NCBI RefSeq assembly: GCF_014251235.1
Contig: NZ_CP059181.1
Coordinates: 503,496-567,495, forward strand
From: Blattabacterium cuenoti
GTDB taxonomy: Bacteria > Bacteroidota > Bacteroidia > Flavobacteriales > Blattabacteriaceae
Direction of reading: 5' to 3'
Length of the DNA stretch: 64,000 nt
Shown here piece by piece: positions 2,630-61,663 of the stretch (its first letter is position 1; each line of letters opens with the position of its first letter). Made by a program: the position numbers and the translations under genes. The notes under the pieces were generated by a model. It made no database searches. It was not told where the DNA came from and saw only the letters and a program-made list of their open reading frames with translations.

Positions 2630-5461
2630 ATGGAATATAATTTTCGTGAAATAGAAAAACGTTGGCAAATATTTTGGAAAAAAAAAAATATTTTCCAAAC
2701 AAAAAATTCTTTAAAAAAAAATCTATCTTCAAAATTTTATATTTTAAATATGTTTCCTTATCCTTCTGGTTATGGACTTCATGTAGGACATTGTTTAGGT
2801 TATATAGCTTCAGATATCTATGCTAGATATAAGAGAACAGAAGGTTGTAATGTACTTTACCCCATGGGTTTTGATTCTTTTGGACTACCTGCAGAACAAT
2901 ATGCAATTCAAACAGGAAAGAATCCTGATGAAACGACTCGAGATAATATAAAAAGATATAAAAATCAAATGGAAAAAATAGGGCTTTCATTTGATTGGAA
3001 AAATCAACTATGTACTAGTTCTACAGATTATTATCGTTGGACTCAATGGATGTTTATTCAAATTTTTGATTCTTGGTATGATAAAAATAGTGATAAAGCT
3101 AAACCTATAAATCTTTTAATTGAAGAATTCAATAAAAATGGAAATTTATGTGTTAATCCAAGTAGTAGTAATAACAAAATTACTAATTTTAAATTTAATT
3201 CTCAAATGTGGAAAGAATTTAATTCTTACAAAAAAGAATCTATTCTTTCAAATTATCGTTTAGCTTTTTTATGTAAAAATACAGTTAATTGGTGTCCAGA
3301 ATTAGGTACAGTTTTAGCTAATGATGAAATTAAGAATGGGAAAAGTCAAAGGGGAGGATTTCCTATTTATAAAAAAAAAATGTTACAATGGCATATAAGA
3401 ATTTCTTCTTATGCAGAAAGACTTTTAAAAGGGTTAGATGATATTGAATGTTCTGAATCTTTAAAAAAAATTCAATACAATTGGATAGGAAAAAAGTCAG
3501 GAATTTCTATTTATTTAGATCTTTTTTTTCATATAAATGGAATTAAAAAAATAGAAATTTTTCTTGAACGTCCAGAAATTATATTTGGTATGACTTTTAT
3601 CATATTATCTACAGATCATCCATTTTCGGAAAAAATATCTCTTTTATACCAAAAAGAAAAAGTTAAATCGTTTTGCGAACAAAGTTCTCTTATAGAAAAA
3701 GAGAAAAGTATTTCTGGTATTTTCACAGGAAATTATATTTTTCATCCTTTTATTAAAAATAAAAAAATACCAATTTATATTAGTGATAATTTTTATGTAG
3801 ATAATCAAACTAGATCGACGATAGGAATTCCTGGTCATGAAAACATATGTCAAACATTTGCTAAAAAATTTCATTTAGACATAATAGATGTATTAACAAC
3901 CAACAATAATGAAAAAAAAGAAAAAACTTTTATTAATTCTTATTTTCTAAATGGATTAAATATAAAAGAAGCTAGAAAAAAAATTATCCTAATTTTAGAA
4001 AAAAAGAAAATAGGATTTCAAAAGAATAGTTATAAATTACGTGATGCTATTTTCTCAAGACAAAGATATTGGGGGGAACCAATTCCTATTTATTATAAGA
4101 GAAATCATATACCAAATCCAATACCTATAGAAAATCTTCCTCTAATTTTACCTAAAATAAATAATTATCATCCAAAAAATGGAAAATCTCCATTAGTAAG
4201 AGTAAATAATTGGGCTTGGGACGAAAAAAACAAGAAAATAGTATCCAATACTCTTATTGATAATCAATCTATTTTTCCAATAGAGACTAATACAATGCCT
4301 AGTTGGGCTGGATCAAGTTGGTATTTTCTTCGTTATATGGATGTTAATAATTCTCATTTTTTTTTATCTAAAAGAAAAGAAAAATATTGGATTAACGTAG
4401 ACCTATATATAGGAGGATCTGAACATTCTACAGGTCATTTAATTTATGCAAGATTTTGGAATAAATTTTTAAAAGATAGAGGATGGATTAAATCAGAAGA
4501 GCCTTTTCAAAGAATATTAAATCAAGGAATGATTCTAAGTCATTCTGTATCTATACTAAAAATTATTGGAAAAAATATATTTGTATCTTTTGGATTAAGG
4601 AACAATAGAAAAAAATTTCATGATTCTTTTCAAGAAGTATATGTAGATATTTCTTTAATTGATCATAATAATGAATTGAATATAAATAAATTCAAAAAAT
4701 GGAGATCAGAATACTACCATGCAGAATTTGTTTTAGAAAAGGGTGTTTTTTTGTGTAAGAAAAAATTAGAGAAAATGTCGAAATCTAAATATAATGTAAT
4801 CACTCCAGATACAATCTATAAAAAATTCGGATCCGATGTATTTCGTGTATATGAAATGTTTCTTGGTCCAATTATGGTATCAAAACCATGGAATGACGAA
4901 AAAATTAATGGAATAAAAAATTTTCTAAATAAATTATGGCGTTTATTTCATAATAACAATAATCAAACATTTTATATCAGTAATAATACTCCAACTTTTA
5001 AAGAACTAAAAATTTTACATTTCACAATTAAAAAATTAAAAGAAAAAATAAATTCATTTTCCTTTAATACATCTATTAGTTATCTAATGATTATGGTAAA
5101 TAAATTAATTATTCTAAAATGTAATAAAAGAAAAATATTGGAACCTTTGGTTCAATTATTAGCTCCATTTACCCCACATATTTCAGAAGAAATATGGATG
5201 AAATTAGGTAAAAAAAAATCAATTTTATTTTATTCCTTTCCTAATTTTGATCAAAAATATTTATTAGAAAATAAAATAACATATCCAATTATGTTAAATG
5301 GAAAATTTAAATTTACAGAAACGTTTGAAGTTTCTTTAAAAAAGAAAGAAATAGAAAAAAAAATACTAAATCATATTAAAGTAAAGATCTTTTTAAAAGA
5401 AAAAAAATTGAAAAAAATAATTATTATTCAAAATAAAATAATAAATATTATAGGAAAATAA
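2630..5461 (+). CDS. leuS: Leucyl-tRNA synthetase with a degraded editing site
   Basis: Class I synthetase charging tRNA-Leu. HVGH (the HIGH signature) is at residues 51-54 and KMSKS at 715-719, so the aminoacylation core looks intact. The 943-aa length includes the insertion after residue 145 typical of Bacteroidetes LeuRS. The CP1 editing domain is present (about 280-460) but its signatures are lost: the usual TTRPDT threonine-rich peptide reads LERPEI (312-317), and the PAHDxxD motif reads PGHENIC (401-407), so the position of the essential editing aspartate (E. coli Asp345) is Cys407. The protein therefore probably charges leucine normally but cannot remove misacylated norvaline or isoleucine. 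ATG at 2630 is the first start after a 103-bp spacer. Confidence 0.97.
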   Translation: MEYNFREIEKRWQIFWKKKNIFQTKNSLKKNLSSKFYILNMFPYPSGYGLHVGHCLGYIASDIYARYKRTEGCNVLYPMGFDSFGLPAEQYAIQTGKNPDETTRDNIKRYKNQMEKIGLSFDWKNQLCTSSTDYYRWTQWMFIQIFDSWYDKNSDKAKPINLLIEEFNKNGNLCVNPSSSNNKITNFKFNSQMWKEFNSYKKESILSNYRLAFLCKNTVNWCPELGTVLANDEIKNGKSQRGGFPIYKKKMLQWHIRISSYAERLLKGLDDIECSESLKKIQYNWIGKKSGISIYLDLFFHINGIKKIEIFLERPEIIFGMTFIILSTDHPFSEKISLLYQKEKVKSFCEQSSLIEKEKSISGIFTGNYIFHPFIKNKKIPIYISDNFYVDNQTRSTIGIPGHENICQTFAKKFHLDIIDVLTTNNNEKKEKTFINSYFLNGLNIKEARKKIILILEKKKIGFQKNSYKLRDAIFSRQRYWGEPIPIYYKRNHIPNPIPIENLPLILPKINNYHPKNGKSPLVRVNNWAWDEKNKKIVSNTLIDNQSIFPIETNTMPSWAGSSWYFLRYMDVNNSHFFLSKRKEKYWINVDLYIGGSEHSTGHLIYARFWNKFLKDRGWIKSEEPFQRILNQGMILSHSVSILKIIGKNIFVSFGLRNNRKKFHDSFQEVYVDISLIDHNNELNINKFKKWRSEYYHAEFVLEKGVFLCKKKLEKMSKSKYNVITPDTIYKKFGSDVFRVYEMFLGPIMVSKPWNDEKINGIKNFLNKLWRLFHNNNNQTFYISNNTPTFKELKILHFTIKKLKEKINSFSFNTSISYLMIMVNKLIILKCNKRKILEPLVQLLAPFTPHISEEIWMKLGKKKSILFYSFPNFDQKYLLENKITYPIMLNGKFKFTETFEVSLKKKEIEKKILNHIKVKIFLKEKKLKKIIIIQNKIINIIGK

Positions 5462-54647: not shown

Positions 54648-57308
54648 TTGAAAAATGAAATAGATTTTTTTATTCAAAAATTTTTATCAAAAAATTTTTT
54701 AACCAAAAAACTAATTTTGGTGACTTCCGATAAAATTCTAATGGAAAATATAAAAAAAAAATTTAATAGAAAAACTACTAAATTTTTTACCATGGAAAAA
54801 TTAATGGAAGAAATATCAGGTCTATCTTTTTTTCCTAAATCTTACATTCTTTTCTCTTGGTTTTATATGTTAAAAAAAGAAAAAAACCTCTTAGCAAAAA
54901 ATTTTCATAATTTTTTTAAATGGGGTCCTAATATCCTTGATGATTTTCAAGAGATTGATTATAATTTAATAAATATTGAATATTTTTTTTCTTATATGAT
55001 TTCTACAGAAAAAATAAAAAAATGGAATCTTAATCCTATCAGAAAAAAATACAAAGAAAAAAATCTTTTTTGGGAAGAAATATACAAATATTATAAACTA
55101 CTAACTTCTCATCTTTTTAGGAAAAAAAAAGGATATCATGGAATGATATTTAGAAAGGCTTTCGATCGTTTACAAGATTTCGTTCAAAAAAATAAATTAG
55201 ATACAAAAATTATTATAGTAAGAACAAAATTTCATTTACTTGCGAAATATGAAGAAATTTTTATTAAAAAAATTATTGAATTAGATAAAAATTTTATAGA
55301 ATTATATAATCTACACGGTAATTCAATCAATAAAAAAAATAATACTAATCTGAATAATATTAAAATCATTAGTGTGACTAAAGAAATAGAACAAGTTAAA
55401 ATTGTAGAAAAAATAGTTCATAAATTAATAAAAAAAGGACATAGTTTATCAAAAATTATTCTAATACTTGGAGACAATTATTTAATTTTTCCACTTTTAT
55501 CTTTTTTTAAGAAAAATCTTGGAATAAATTTATCCGTATCTATTAATTATCCAATTAAAAATCTTCCTATTCATTCTACTTTTTATTACATTTTTCAATT
55601 TTTATTAAAAAAAGAAGAATTCAAAAATTTTTCTAAAAAAGATATACTAAGAATATTATCAGATGGATATATTAAGAAGTTTTTTTTTCAAGAACAACAG
55701 TCTTCTTTTATAAAAAAATTTAACATAGAAAATATCCATTTTTTTACAAGAAAAGAAATAAATCAATTTTTTTTAAAAAATGATTTAAATATTATTTTTC
55801 AAATAAATACTCATGATATAAAAAAAAGCATTCTTGGATTGGTTAAATTTATTAGAATTTTTAATAATTTTTTCTATATAAACACGGAAAAATATATGTT
55901 AGAATTGAAATTTCTTTCTGGTTTGGAGATTTATATGCAGAAAATTAAAATTTTAACAAGAAAAATAGGACATAAATATTTTAAAATTCAAGACTTATTT
56001 AATATTTATAAATTTTTTATAAAAAAAGAAAAAATTTTCTATAGAAAAAAAAATCCAGAAAGTTTATATTCAATAAGTTTTTTAGATTCTTTTTTTGAAA
56101 ATTTTGAAACAACAATTATAACTTCTGTCAATGAAGGAATCATTCCTCCGTCCAATAATAAAACAGATAATTCTTTTATTCCTATTGACATACGTAAAAA
56201 ATTTTTATTTTCCGAAGAAAATGATAAATTTTCTTATTCATATTTTATGAGATTATTGGAAAATTTTAAAAATGTTTTTTTGATTTATAAGGATCAAGCT
56301 GACGAACTAAATTCAGGAGAAAAGAGTCGTTTTATCCATCAAATAGAAATGAATTCCAATTTTTCTATAAAAAAGGAATCTAAAAAAACACCTATTATAG
56401 AACTTTATAATAAAAAAATTACCATCGTAATAAAAAAAACAAATTCTATATTAAAACGTTTATCTTACTTAACAAATAAAGGTTTATCTCCAACTTCGAT
56501 TCTTTTGTACAATTACAATCCACTACTTTTTTATTATCAAAAAATACTTGGATTACAAGAAGAAAAAATTTCTACTAAACAAAAAATAGGTAAAATTATA
56601 CATGAAATTCTAAAAATATTATATCATCCTATTAAATGGAAGTTGATAACTTCTAATCTTATTAAAAAAATGAAAAAAGATTATGAAGAAATAATAAAAA
56701 AAGTTGTTTCAAAAACAATTAAAAATTTTTCATTAGAAGGTGAAAATTTACTATTCTACCACATCATAAAGAATTATATAGAAAATTTTATATCATGGGA
56801 AGAAAAAATATTTTACAAAGGATATAAAATTCTTATCAAAGAAGTCGAATTTAGTATGTCAACTCAATTAGATATTGGATATAAAAAAGTAAATTTATAC
56901 GGAATTATAGATCGTATTGATGAATGTAATGGAATAACACGGATACTTGATTATAAAACAGGTTTGTCTAGAGAAAAAAAAACCCATGTTACAATTAAAA
57001 ATATTGAAAACATATTTCATGATCCAAATCATGGAAATACAATGCAATTGCTCATATACATTTATTTATGGTTTCAAACCAATCATCAAAAAAAAAAACC
57101 ACCAATCATAGCTAATATTTCACTTGAGAAAGAAAAAAAGAATTCTATTTTCATAAAACCTGTTAATTTTTTTTATAGAAAAAAAGAAGTGGATATCACT
57201 TATGATAAATATAAAGAGTTTTTTCTTCCGTATTTAGTGAATAAAATTACAGAAATATTAGATCCTCATATTCCAATTATAGAAAAAAAAATCAACAATG
57301 AATTTTAA
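54648..57308 (+). CDS. PD-(D/E)XK nuclease of the AddB-like family
   Basis: Large DNA-processing protein related to the AddB half of AddAB recombination nucleases. The C-terminal nuclease domain (about 640-880) has GIIDRID (752-758) and LDYKTG with Asp768 and Lys770, plus QLLIYIYLWF helix IV. A helicase-like motif appears near 495 (ITSVNEGIIPPS). The N-terminus shows no Walker A loop, as in Bacteroidetes members of this family, so ATP hydrolysis probably belongs to a partner AddA/UvrD-like protein outside the window. Start TTG at 54648, 11 bases after ribF; an ATG at 54655 is out of frame. At 886 aa it is near full length but extremely lysine/asparagine-rich. Overlaps convergent leuB by 17 bases. 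Confidence 0.8.
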   Translation: MKNEIDFFIQKFLSKNFLTKKLILVTSDKILMENIKKKFNRKTTKFFTMEKLMEEISGLSFFPKSYILFSWFYMLKKEKNLLAKNFHNFFKWGPNILDDFQEIDYNLINIEYFFSYMISTEKIKKWNLNPIRKKYKEKNLFWEEIYKYYKLLTSHLFRKKKGYHGMIFRKAFDRLQDFVQKNKLDTKIIIVRTKFHLLAKYEEIFIKKIIELDKNFIELYNLHGNSINKKNNTNLNNIKIISVTKEIEQVKIVEKIVHKLIKKGHSLSKIILILGDNYLIFPLLSFFKKNLGINLSVSINYPIKNLPIHSTFYYIFQFLLKKEEFKNFSKKDILRILSDGYIKKFFFQEQQSSFIKKFNIENIHFFTRKEINQFFLKNDLNIIFQINTHDIKKSILGLVKFIRIFNNFFYINTEKYMLELKFLSGLEIYMQKIKILTRKIGHKYFKIQDLFNIYKFFIKKEKIFYRKKNPESLYSISFLDSFFENFETTIITSVNEGIIPPSNNKTDNSFIPIDIRKKFLFSEENDKFSYSYFMRLLENFKNVFLIYKDQADELNSGEKSRFIHQIEMNSNFSIKKESKKTPIIELYNKKITIVIKKTNSILKRLSYLTNKGLSPTSILLYNYNPLLFYYQKILGLQEEKISTKQKIGKIIHEILKILYHPIKWKLITSNLIKKMKKDYEEIIKKVVSKTIKNFSLEGENLLFYHIIKNYIENFISWEEKIFYKGYKILIKEVEFSMSTQLDIGYKKVNLYGIIDRIDECNGITRILDYKTGLSREKKTHVTIKNIENIFHDPNHGNTMQLLIYIYLWFQTNHQKKKPPIIANISLEKEKKNSIFIKPVNFFYRKKEVDITYDKYKEFFLPYLVNKITEILDPHIPIIEKKINNEF

Positions 57309-58374
57309 TATATTTTTCTATGTAATCCCCTACTTCTTCAGTCGTGTAAGAACATTTTTCATTTGTCATTAAATCTGATGTACATATTTTCTCTTCCATA
57401 GAGCTTTTTACTGCTTTTTCAACAATTTTTTTTTCTTTATTCAATCCGAAATGTTCTAACATCATAGATGCTGAAAGAATAGATCCTAACGGATTTGCTA
57501 TATTTTTTCCTTTAGCTTCAGGATAAGATCCATGAACAGGCTCAAACAAAGAATTATTTTTTCCTATAGAAGCAGAAGGTAACAAACCTAAAGAACCTGT
57601 AATTACACTCGCTCCATCTGATAAAATATCTCCAAACATGTTATCTGTTAAAATAACGTCAAATTTTATAGGATTAAGAAGAATTTTCATAATTGCATGA
57701 TCTATATACAAAAATTCTAATTTTACATCTGGATAACAACTTAACCCAATTCTTTTTATTACTTCACGCCATAACCTAGAAGTTTCTAAGACGTTTGCTT
57801 TGTCTACTAAAGTTATTTTTTTTCGACGCATACGTGCTGCCTCAAAAGCCTTTTTTCCAATACGTTCAATTTCTTTTGTAGAATATATACAATGATCATA
57901 AGCTACTTTTTCATTTCTTTCATTTATATAAACACCTTTTTTTCCAAAATAGATTCCACCTGTTAATTCTCTATAAATAACAAAATTTATTCCTTTTAAT
58001 TTTTCTTTTTTTATAGGTGATTTATCAATTATTGAATAATTAATTATAGGACGAATATTACAATATAACCCCATTTCTTTTCTAAGTTTCAACAAACCAT
58101 CTTCTGGTCTCATTCCTCTTCTTGTATTATAATGATCATATTTTGGATCTCCTATAGATCCAAGTAAAATAGCATCAGATTTTAAACATTCTTTTAGTGT
58201 TTTTTTTGGCATAGGATCTCCTAATTTTTCTATAGATTTAACTCCTGATAAAACTTTTTTATAAGAAAAATCATGATCAAATCTATTTTGGATAGAATTC
58301 AAAACTTTTAACGTTTGTTTAATTACTTCCGGTCCTATTCCATCCCCTTCCATTACAACAATATTTTTTTTCAT
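57292..58374 (-). CDS. leuB: 3-isopropylmalate dehydrogenase
   Basis: NAD-dependent oxidative decarboxylation, third step of leucine synthesis. GDGIGPEVIKQTLKVL near the start, RREMGLYCNIRP-type segment (LRKEMGLYCNIRP), FVIYRELTGGIYFG, and TDNMFGDILSDGASVITGSLG with metal-binding aspartates are diagnostic. An in-frame TTG at 58380 precedes ATG 58374; the ATG is preferred (360 aa). Last gene of the leuA-C-D-B cluster, all with tiny gaps or overlaps. Its end overlaps the AddB-like gene by 17 bases. Confidence 0.96.
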   Translation of the reverse strand: MKKNIVVMEGDGIGPEVIKQTLKVLNSIQNRFDHDFSYKKVLSGVKSIEKLGDPMPKKTLKECLKSDAILLGSIGDPKYDHYNTRRGMRPEDGLLKLRKEMGLYCNIRPIINYSIIDKSPIKKEKLKGINFVIYRELTGGIYFGKKGVYINERNEKVAYDHCIYSTKEIERIGKKAFEAARMRRKKITLVDKANVLETSRLWREVIKRIGLSCYPDVKLEFLYIDHAIMKILLNPIKFDVILTDNMFGDILSDGASVITGSLGLLPSASIGKNNSLFEPVHGSYPEAKGKNIANPLGSILSASMMLEHFGLNKEKKIVEKAVKSSMEEKICTSDLMTNEKCSYTTEEVGDYIEKYIKIHC

Positions 58375-58376
58375 CT

Positions 58377-58970
58377 TCAATTAATATTTCTTTTATTTTC
58401 AAAATGTTCTATTTCTTTTCTCATAGAAATTAAAAAATCAATGTCATCATAACCATTGATAAAACAAATTTTTTTGTATGTAGAAATGCTAAATTTTTCA
58501 AAATATTTTGTGTTTACTATTTTAACAACTTGTTGGATTAAATCCACCTTAATATTCGTATTAGGTTCTTTATAAATTGTATAAAATAATTTTTTCAGAA
58601 ATTTATCAGAAATCTCTATAACAAGTAATCCGTTATTTAATGCATTTTCTTTAAAAATATCAGCAAAAAAACTAGATATAACTACCCTAAATCCATAATC
58701 ATAGATAGCCCAAACAGCATGTTCTCTACTAGAACCACAACCAAAATTTCTTCCTGATAAAAGAATTTCTCCTGAAAATATAGGATTATTTAAAACAAAA
58801 TTTTTGTTAATAAATCCATCTTTTCCATAACGCCAATCTCTAAAAACATTTTCCATACATTTTTCTCTTCTTGTTTCTTTTAAAAAACGAGATGGAATAA
58901 TTTGATCTGTATCAACATCTTCCATCAATAAAGGAACTACTTTACTAGTTATTACGGTAAATTTTTTCAT
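58377..58970 (-). CDS. leuD: 3-isopropylmalate dehydratase small subunit
   Basis: Swivelling subunit that, with LeuC, isomerises isopropylmalate. DTDQIIPSRFLK near residues 20-31 and GRNFGCGSSREHAVWAIYDYGFRVVISSFFADIF near 93-126 are the hallmarks. Length 197 aa is normal for LeuD. It shares one base with leuC and lies two bases from the leuB ATG, so translation of the three is probably coupled. Confidence 0.97.
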   Translation of the reverse strand: MKKFTVITSKVVPLLMEDVDTDQIIPSRFLKETRREKCMENVFRDWRYGKDGFINKNFVLNNPIFSGEILLSGRNFGCGSSREHAVWAIYDYGFRVVISSFFADIFKENALNNGLLVIEISDKFLKKLFYTIYKEPNTNIKVDLIQQVVKIVNTKYFEKFSISTYKKICFINGYDDIDFLISMRKEIEHFENKRNIN

Positions 58971-60379
58971 CAGGAAATATATTTTCTAATATCCACAATT
59001 CTTCCTTTAATCGCTATAATTGAAGCAGTCAAAGGACTTACTAATAAAGTACGAACACCTGTCCCCTGTCTTCCTTCAAAATTTCTATTAGATGTAGAAA
59101 CACAGTATTCCCCCATAGGAATTTTATCTTCATTCATTCCTAAACAAGCGGAACATCCTGGTTGACGAAATTCAAATCCAGCATTTTCTAAAATTTTATC
59201 TAATCCTTCTTTTTTTGCTTGTTTAATAACATTTTGTGAACCAGGTACAACCATAACTTTTACATGTTTAGCTTTCTTTTTTCCTTTTACTATGGACGCC
59301 ACCATTCTAATATCTTCTATTCTAGAATTTGTACAACTACCTATAAAAATATAATTAACTTTTTTTCCAATTAAAGATTCTCCAGATTTAAAACCCATAT
59401 AATCTAAAGATCTTTTTTTTTGATGATTATCATTAATTTTTGGAATAAAATGATGTATTTTCATCCCCATACCAGGCGTCGTACCATAAGTTATCATAGG
59501 TTCAATATCTTCGGAAGATAAAATGTATTCTTTATCAAATACAGCATCATCATCTGTCTTTAAATAGTTAAAATGTTTTTTGATAGCAAGATTTTTTCCT
59601 TTTAAAAAAGGATAGATAGATGTAGTACATCTACTAATGTAATTAAAAGTTATTTCATCTGGAGCTATTAATCCTCCTTTAGATCCCATCTCTATACTCA
59701 TATTACAAATAGTCATTCTTCCTTCCATACTCATTTTACGAATAACATAACCTGTATACTCTATAAAATGACCAATTCCTACATCTACTCCTAATTTAGA
59801 AATTATGTATAAAATAATATCTTTTGGAGTCACTCCTTTTTTTAAAAACCTTCCTTTCAAATGAATTCTCATTTTTTTAGGTTTACTCAATAATAAACAT
59901 TGACTAGCTAGTACCATGGATACTTGACTTGTCCCTATTCCAAAAGCAACACAACCAAAAGCTCCGTGAGTAGAAGTGTGGCTATCTCCACAAACAATAG
60001 TCATTCCCGGTAAGGTTAATCCTAATTCAGGACCAATAACATGAACAATTCCATGATTTTTATTTCCTAATTCAAACAATTCTATTCCATATTTTCTGCA
60101 ATTATTTATTAATAAATCTACTTGTTTTCTAGATAAAGGATCTGAAATAGGCAAATCTTGATTTATGGTAGGAACATTATGATCTGCTGTCGCTATGATT
60201 TTTTTTGGACGAAAAACAGGAATTCCTTTTTTTTCTATTTCTAAAAAAGCTTGAGGACTAGTCACTTCATGTATATAATGTCTATCTATATACAGAACAT
60301 CTATCTCATTAGATAATTTTTTTACTACATGAGATTCCCAAATCTTATCGAATAATGATTTTGATATTTTTATTGACAT
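58970..60379 (-). CDS. leuC: 3-isopropylmalate dehydratase large subunit
   Basis: Aconitase-family enzyme with a 4Fe-4S cluster bound by Cys349 (GSCTNSR), Cys409 and Cys412 (PGCSACLGMN). VCGDSHTSTHGAFG near 130-143 is the family signature. Length 469 aa is normal. It needs Fe-S assembly, for which SufE is encoded at 12.5 kb. Five bases after leuA. Confidence 0.97.
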   Translation of the reverse strand: MSIKISKSLFDKIWESHVVKKLSNEIDVLYIDRHYIHEVTSPQAFLEIEKKGIPVFRPKKIIATADHNVPTINQDLPISDPLSRKQVDLLINNCRKYGIELFELGNKNHGIVHVIGPELGLTLPGMTIVCGDSHTSTHGAFGCVAFGIGTSQVSMVLASQCLLLSKPKKMRIHLKGRFLKKGVTPKDIILYIISKLGVDVGIGHFIEYTGYVIRKMSMEGRMTICNMSIEMGSKGGLIAPDEITFNYISRCTTSIYPFLKGKNLAIKKHFNYLKTDDDAVFDKEYILSSEDIEPMITYGTTPGMGMKIHHFIPKINDNHQKKRSLDYMGFKSGESLIGKKVNYIFIGSCTNSRIEDIRMVASIVKGKKKAKHVKVMVVPGSQNVIKQAKKEGLDKILENAGFEFRQPGCSACLGMNEDKIPMGEYCVSTSNRNFEGRQGTGVRTLLVSPLTASIIAIKGRIVDIRKYIS

Positions 60380-60384
60380 AAAAA

Positions 60385-61614
60385 CTATACAACATTTAGC
60401 TTATTTTTTTCTACTATACTATGATCATTTTCATGATGAAATAATTTATCTTTCTCAAGATTAGCCTCTTTTAAAATTATCTCTAATTCTTTATCAACTA
60501 TTTCTTTCTTTTTATCTGCATAATTTAAAAAAATGGAATAAACTAATTCTAAAGAATTCTTGTTTAAGAAGTATCCCAATTTTTGATAACGATAAGCTAA
60601 AGCCGCACGTCCACTTCTTGCAGTTAAAACAATAGAAAAATCATGAGAACCTACATCCTTTGGATTAATACTTTCATAAGTTTCTCTTTTTTTAAGAATA
60701 CCATCTTGGTGAATTCCTGATGAATGAGAAAAAGCATTGATACCTACAATAGCTTTATTAGCTTGAACTTTCATTCCAGTACATTTCGATACTAAATCAC
60801 TTGTTTGAAAAATAAGTTTTGTTTTTATGTTTGTAAATAAATTTAGATTTGGATTTTGATTGATAATCATCACTATTTCTTCTAAAGAAGTATTTCCAGC
60901 TCTTTCTCCTATTCCATTGATTGTACATTCTACTTGTTTAGCTCCATTCATAATCCCTGATAAAGAATTAGCAGTAGCTAAACCTAAATCATTATGACAA
61001 TGAGTAGACAATTCTATCTTGTGAATTCCATGAACATTTTCCATAAGAAAACGAATTTTTTCACCATATTCTTCCGGTAAACAATATCCTGTTGTATCCG
61101 GTATATTAATAACTGTTGCTCCATTTTTTATAACATATTCACAAATTTTAGCAAGAAATATATTATCTGTACGTCCTGCATCTTCTGCATAAAATTCTAC
61201 ATCTTCTACAAATTTTTTTGCATATCTAACAGATAGTATAGCTCTTTCCATAATTTTTTCTCTAGTACTGTTAAATTTATAACGAATATGACAATCAGAT
61301 GTTCCTATCCCTGTGTGAATTCTAGATTTTTTTGCATATTTTAAAGAATCACCTGCTATTTCTATATCTTTTTCTAAAGCTCTAGATAATGCACAAATAA
61401 TAGGTTCTGAAATAGATTTAGAAATTTCTTGAACAGAGTAATAATCTCCTGGGCTGGATATAGGAAACCCGGCTTCAATAACATCTACTCCTAATAATTC
61501 TAATTTTTTAGCTATTTTCAATTTTTTTTGAGTATTTAACTTACATCCTGGAACTTGTTCTCCATCACGTAATGTTGTATCAAAAATCTTTATTTTTTTC
61601 TTTTCCATATCCAT
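60385..61614 (-). CDS. leuA: 2-isopropylmalate synthase without the regulatory domain
   Basis: Condenses acetyl-CoA with 2-oxoisovalerate, the committed step of leucine synthesis. [13 protein letters not shown] near the start and the metal-site [15 protein letters not shown] are present, and [15 protein letters not shown] follows the barrel. The protein ends about 40 residues after the accessory helices, so the C-terminal LeuA dimer domain that binds leucine for feedback inhibition is absent. A 16-codon extension to TTG 61662 is possible; ATG at 61614 is chosen because homologues begin just before [10 protein letters not shown] and the likely -7 box lies at 61664. Result is 409 aa. First gene of leuACDB. 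Confidence 0.94.
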
Positions 61615-61663
61615 ACTCTCTTCTCTTTCTTCTTTGTTGAATAATTTGGATCTATTTTCCAAA

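Follow-up and report, generated by a model that had tools for sequence, protein, structure and literature searches.

Results

The window, meaning the whole 64,000-nucleotide stretch of Blattabacterium cuenoti DNA that was analysed, belongs to a genome of 613,216 bases in one contig. On its plus strand, at positions 2630..5461, lies leuS, the gene for leucyl-tRNA synthetase (LeuRS), as an uninterrupted open frame of 943 amino acids running from ATG to TAA. The protein scores 752.7 bits against TIGR00396, well past the curated equivalog cut-off of 548.4, and a search of the whole genome found it to be the single LeuRS copy. The two motifs of the synthetic site, described as intact in the initial annotation, are both read in the leuS frame, with HVGH (the class I HIGH motif) at 2780..2791 and KMSKS at 4772..4786, likewise on the plus strand.

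Residues 284-455 of the protein (3479..3994, plus strand) match the CP1 editing domain, PF13603, with a Pfam score of 108.8 bits. An AlphaFold2 model of the domain (mean pLDDT 87.7, pTM 0.83) superimposes on the solved LeuRS editing domains 4k47, 8por and 1h3n with a Z of 22 and an rmsd of 2.0-2.2 over 163-169 residues (VIA-align); the CP1 fold is therefore predicted to be kept despite the loss of the catalytic residues. First, the peptide LERPEI (3563..3580, plus strand) stands in place of TTRPDT (T247-T252 in E. coli), which is found in all 26 free-living relatives. Next, the YGTGAVM loop adjacent to the site is replaced, including Tyr330 (E. coli numbering; PMC3834818), whose position is taken by Asn392 (3803..3805, plus strand), a change that the initial annotation had not spotted; the Tyr is present in 25/26 free-living species and in 0/49 genomes of the genus. 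Finally, the essential Asp345 of E. coli is replaced by Cys407 (TGT; 3848..3850, plus strand), the last residue of PGHENIC (3830-3850), which is read in the open leuS frame. When the protein is aligned with the Thermus thermophilus LeuRS in HMMER, TTRPDT is matched by LERPEI and the second Asp of PAHDQRD by Cys407. Both substitutions had been named beforehand from the sequence: the residues and coordinates of LERPEI are exact by alignment and codons, and Cys407 does fall on the equivalent of E. coli D345. Of the features of an editing-competent CP1 domain the fold is thus present, and Asp345, TTRPDT with its T252, and Tyr330 with the GTGAVM loop are absent.

An open leuS is present in all 49 Blattabacterium genomes sampled, and the alignment of their CP1 domains with those of 26 free-living Flavobacteriales, which had been proposed as a check, shows that the loss of the editing site is fixed in the genus. 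The position of Asp345 holds Ser in 43 genomes, always as an AGY codon, and Cys in six (TGY), and Asp in none, whereas every free-living species has both D345 and TTRPDT. Because D345 is missing from 49/49 genomes of the genus and from 0/26 of the free-living ones, the loss can be ascribed neither to chance nor to sequencing error. Elsewhere in the site, Glu occupies the D251 position (residue 316) in 49 of the 49 genomes, T252 is kept in five, T247 in 12 and Y330 in none; the A334 position is Ser in 44 and the D342 position Glu in 40, and the T248, R249, T252, Y330, G331 and G333 positions are highly variable across the genus. Judged by sequence comparison, the change of D251 to Glu is not damaging by itself, because TTRPET is the normal reading in ValRS, and D345 is retained in two symbiont genera of this family in which the Glu also occurs. 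The suspicion that the pattern is an alignment or assembly artefact, with the catalytic residues lying elsewhere in this lineage, can practically be dismissed: the positions are canonical in the 26 free-living relatives and in several members of the family, 49 separate assemblies agree, and the alignment with the 26 free-living and 19 same-family LeuRSs rules out any relocation of the catalytic residues, a finding that would have spoken against a dead site.

The family sample consisted of 19 further symbionts from eight other genera, here designated g2 and g27 to g33. An intact LeuRS editing site is found in g28, with a genome of 1.3 Mb, and in g2, represented by two genomes of 0.34 Mb. D345 is kept in g2, g27, g28, g31 and g33; in g27 (TTRPET) and g33 (TPRPET) D251 is now Glu and D345 is still there, and in g31 the threonine peptide is mostly lost and D345 retained. 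Genus g29 has Ser at position 345, the stretch carrying D345 is gone in g32 (263,431 bases), and in g30 (173-200 kb) CP1 is reduced to about 125-135 residues. A LeuRS tree built without the CP1 columns places Blattabacterium as a monophyletic group (100/100) and sister of g29+(g31+g30) (100/99), with g2 outside (97/95). The minimum number of D345 changes on this tree is four, with one apparent Asp in the shrunken domain of g30 being unreliably aligned. The tree separates Blattabacterium from g29, beside which stands g31 with its Asp kept, yet a single clade of Blattabacterium and g29 is not rejected (p-AU 0.094), and the change of Asp to Ser in the two groups may represent one event or two. 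Among close relatives in one family, the LeuRS editing domain thus ranges from intact through partly eroded and point-dead to loop-deleted and shrunken, a clean series in which to compare the translation errors that a cell can afford. In the synthetic part of the enzyme, residue 40 (2747-2749), just before MFPYPSG, is Asn in 49/49 Blattabacterium as well as in g29 and g30, and Asp in the free-living species, the D345-keeping family members and g32; it is possible that this D40N change is coupled to the loss of editing.

The LeuRS editing core is under relaxed constraint, and the cores of IleRS and ValRS are not. Among the columns invariant in free-living species, 14/45 have been lost in CP1 as against 4/78 and 5/69 in the two catalytic segments. 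The rate of the editing core relative to the rest of the protein, taken as Blattabacterium over free-living species (12 versus 4 genomes, column bootstrap), is 1.54 (95% 1.31-1.86) for LeuRS and 1.67 (1.41-2.05) for PheRS-beta, with no acceleration in IleRS (0.98) or ValRS (1.04) and a slight one in AlaRS (1.20, 1.01-1.44). Some constraint nevertheless persists at the old site, where only Ser or Cys occurs at 345 and only Glu at residue 316, and a small probability must therefore be left to a remodelled site, in which Ser or Cys at 345 together with Glu251, Ser334 and Glu342 would make a different working hydrolytic or binding site. The retention of a CP1 domain predicted to fold and the prevalence of Ser at the 334 position (44 genomes) and Glu at the 342 position (40 genomes) would agree with such a site, but the wide variation at T248, R249, T252, Y330, G331 and G333, an editing core that evolves faster than in relatives, and the presence of Glu251 in other genera of the family whose site is otherwise preserved make it very improbable. 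The codons point the same way, with Ser always AGY and Cys TGY as from one inherited event; descent from one AGY codon, combined with a role at a helix start (residue 182 of the model, helix 180-188), would explain the restriction to Ser and Cys.

The other proofreading synthetases, namely ThrRS, PheRS, IleRS, ValRS and AlaRS, were checked in 12 or fewer of the 49 Blattabacterium genomes. The ThrRS frames have 415-464 codons in Blattabacterium versus 640-683 in relatives, and the tRNA_SAD domain is absent from ThrRS in 12/12 genomes, its sole match being AlaRS. The truncation can be read directly from an alignment of six Blattabacterium ThrRSs, in which the entire N-terminal TGS and editing part is missing, and tblastn found no remnant of the editing domain beside the truncated gene at six Blattabacterium loci. 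In the genome studied here ThrRS (L269:399-1694, minus strand, outside the window) has at most 431 amino acids, lacks the TGS and editing domains and is left with the class II core and anticodon domains alone; the same domains are separately absent in the 173-200 kb genus g30. In PheRS-beta, the position of E. coli Glu334 is Gly in 11 genomes and Leu in one, so that the residue is lost in 12/12, and the GG pair at 318-319 is lost as well; in T. thermophilus PheRS, Glu334 and Gly315 recognise Tyr in the editing site (PMC12447630). The PheRS-beta of this genome (L204:1180-3270, plus strand, outside the window) has Gly for the editing Glu334 and a reduced N-terminal region, its 696 amino acids being about 100 below its free-living kin, and the B3/B4 domain is far more eroded in three other genomes (G006, G038 and G014). 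The editing motifs are retained in the remaining three enzymes: TTTPWT (singly changed in a few genomes) and H.xPTFG..D in IleRS, TTRPET together with the Asp loop in ValRS, and HxxxH and CxGTH in AlaRS. Proofreading thus appears to be gone for Leu and Thr in Blattabacterium and probably for Phe, and looks kept for Ile, Val and Ala. Rescue of leucine proofreading in trans by a second LeuRS or a free-standing CP1 was also considered and found to have no candidate, as PF13603 matches nothing in these genomes beyond LeuRS and related class I synthetases, and no trans-editing protein of the YbaK/ProX type was found in the 49 genomes.

The window also carries, on the minus strand at 57292..61662, a leuA-leuC-leuD-leuB cluster for leucine synthesis, in E. 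coli also the source of norvaline, with all four genes open. LeuA (60385-61662, minus strand; 425 amino acids) gives no Pfam match to the regulatory LeuA allosteric domain; should that domain be present in free-living relatives, feedback on leucine synthesis would be missing here. A leuA gene was found in 43/49 genomes of the genus and not in the other six (G001, G014, G015, G041, G043 and G047), and leucine synthesis has probably been lost in those strains. LeuRS editing is lost with or without leuA, the six leuA-less genomes included, and a dependence of the editing loss on missing leucine synthesis is rejected in view of the leuBDCA genes and the distribution of leuA. A related suggestion, building on the host-fed cell with little norvaline of the initial annotation, is that the loss was permitted by an absence of norvaline in a cell supplied with leucine by its host. 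Threonine deaminase (ilvA) was not found in this genome by TIGR02079, the two matches (L283 and L284) reading as trpB and cysK, and its lack could lower 2-ketobutyrate, from which isoleucine is made. A leucine-fed cell is still an improbable cause, because leuBDCA is intact in the window, leuA is present in 43/49 genomes and editing is lost in all 49.

Discussion

The findings are best explained if the essential LeuRS lost its CP1 catalytic residues by the time of the common ancestor of the genus or earlier and kept the domain as a structural part, a reading to which we assign a probability of roughly 0.9. Post-transfer editing in the Blattabacterium LeuRS is very probably dead; the original proposal of a dead editing site is strongly supported by residues that are replaced throughout the genus and not relocated, and by a relaxed editing core. 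Mutants of the same Asp, namely AaLeuRS D373A, ScLeuRS D419A, human cytoplasmic D399A and Giardia D444A, have lost post-transfer editing, and with Y330D the tRNA-dependent pre-transfer step is abolished as well (PMC3834818). The Blattabacterium enzyme is therefore expected to charge tRNA-Leu normally but to be unable to hydrolyse norvalyl-tRNA-Leu, which would leave it with discrimination at the synthetic site and perhaps tRNA-independent pre-transfer editing.

By analogy with E. coli, the expected error is norvaline and not isoleucine. E. coli D345A cells carry norvaline at about 1.25-8.8% of Leu sites depending on condition, with no fitness cost in air, and norvaline is nearly the sole error, isoleucine misincorporation being negligible (PMC4932531), which leaves little room for isoleucine as the error substrate that had been put forward alongside norvaline. 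In Blattabacterium, norvaline would likewise be expected to replace a small fraction of leucines that varies with conditions. A rather unlikely alternative agrees with the preferred explanation on CP1 and differs on the consequence: greater stringency of the synthetic site, or pre-transfer editing that needs no tRNA, would offset the loss of CP1 editing and keep translation accurate. The human mitochondrial LeuRS, which also has a degenerate CP1 site, offers a parallel, and the synthetic part does have a few fixed changes, D40N in 49/49 genomes among them, but no change with a known sharpening effect on specificity was recognised, and the parallel loss in ThrRS and PheRS favours relaxed selection over repair in LeuRS. 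The E. coli LeuRS itself discriminates against norvaline by a factor of about 1 in 1169 (PMC4932531).

Under the preferred explanation of an inherited loss of editing, its cause would be drift in a population that is small, protected and inherited vertically, where selection is weak. The initial annotation had given two reasons why mistranslation might be tolerated, and weak selection is the better of them, whereas a host-fed cell with little norvaline finds no support in a window where leuB, leuD, leuC and leuA are intact. Drift may then have cost the genus its proofreading against the milder errors, those at Leu, Thr and Phe, with the proofreading of Ile, Val and Ala errors left in place. 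At slightly better than even odds, we suggest that three proofreading sites were lost together (LeuRS dead, ThrRS deleted, PheRS without its Glu334) and three kept, that Leu, Thr and Phe positions of the proteome have been statistical since before the radiation of the genus, and that the harm done by each error determined which sites survived. If true, the triple loss would exceed the two-loss ceiling proposed from mycoplasmas. With three of six proofreading sites apparently lost and three kept, Blattabacterium would allow a ranking of errors by harm to be tested in an animal-associated mutualist.

Degenerate editing sites have been described in host-restricted bacteria, with free-living ones keeping them (Melnikov et al. 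2018, doi 10.1073/pnas.1815992115, as cited in PMC10057733, PMC7373986 and PMC11020763). By its residues, the Blattabacterium LeuRS would belong among the naturally editing-defective enzymes, in which the editing catalytic residues have been lost in nature and the synthetic site kept, and it is a well-documented new case of a known kind of event rather than a new system; relative to the general claim for host-restricted bacteria, what is established here is the fixation across the genus, the graded series within the family and the split between Leu, Thr and Phe on one side and Ile, Val and Ala on the other. The nearest bacterial parallel is found in the mycoplasmas, where the LeuRS, PheRS and ThrRS editing domains are degenerate or deleted (PMC4014445, PMC7373986) and no known genome combines as many as three proofreading losses (PMC7373986). 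Both groups are host-restricted with reduced genomes, and the same three synthetases are hit, but Blattabacterium keeps the whole CP1 in 49/49 genomes and shows the three losses together in each of the 12 checked. Mycoplasma is moreover a parasite and Blattabacterium a nutritional mutualist, for which reason immune escape, the usual adaptive argument in parasites, is a poor explanation here. The human mitochondrial LeuRS resembles the Blattabacterium enzyme in retaining the CP1 domain around a degenerate and inactive editing site (PMC3834818); it is organellar and was assayed in vitro, whereas the Blattabacterium enzyme is known here from its sequence and predicted structure. Finally, the E. 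coli D345A strain has lost the same residue, with norvaline at Leu sites as the effect (PMC4932531), although that loss was engineered as one change in a laboratory strain of a free-living bacterium.
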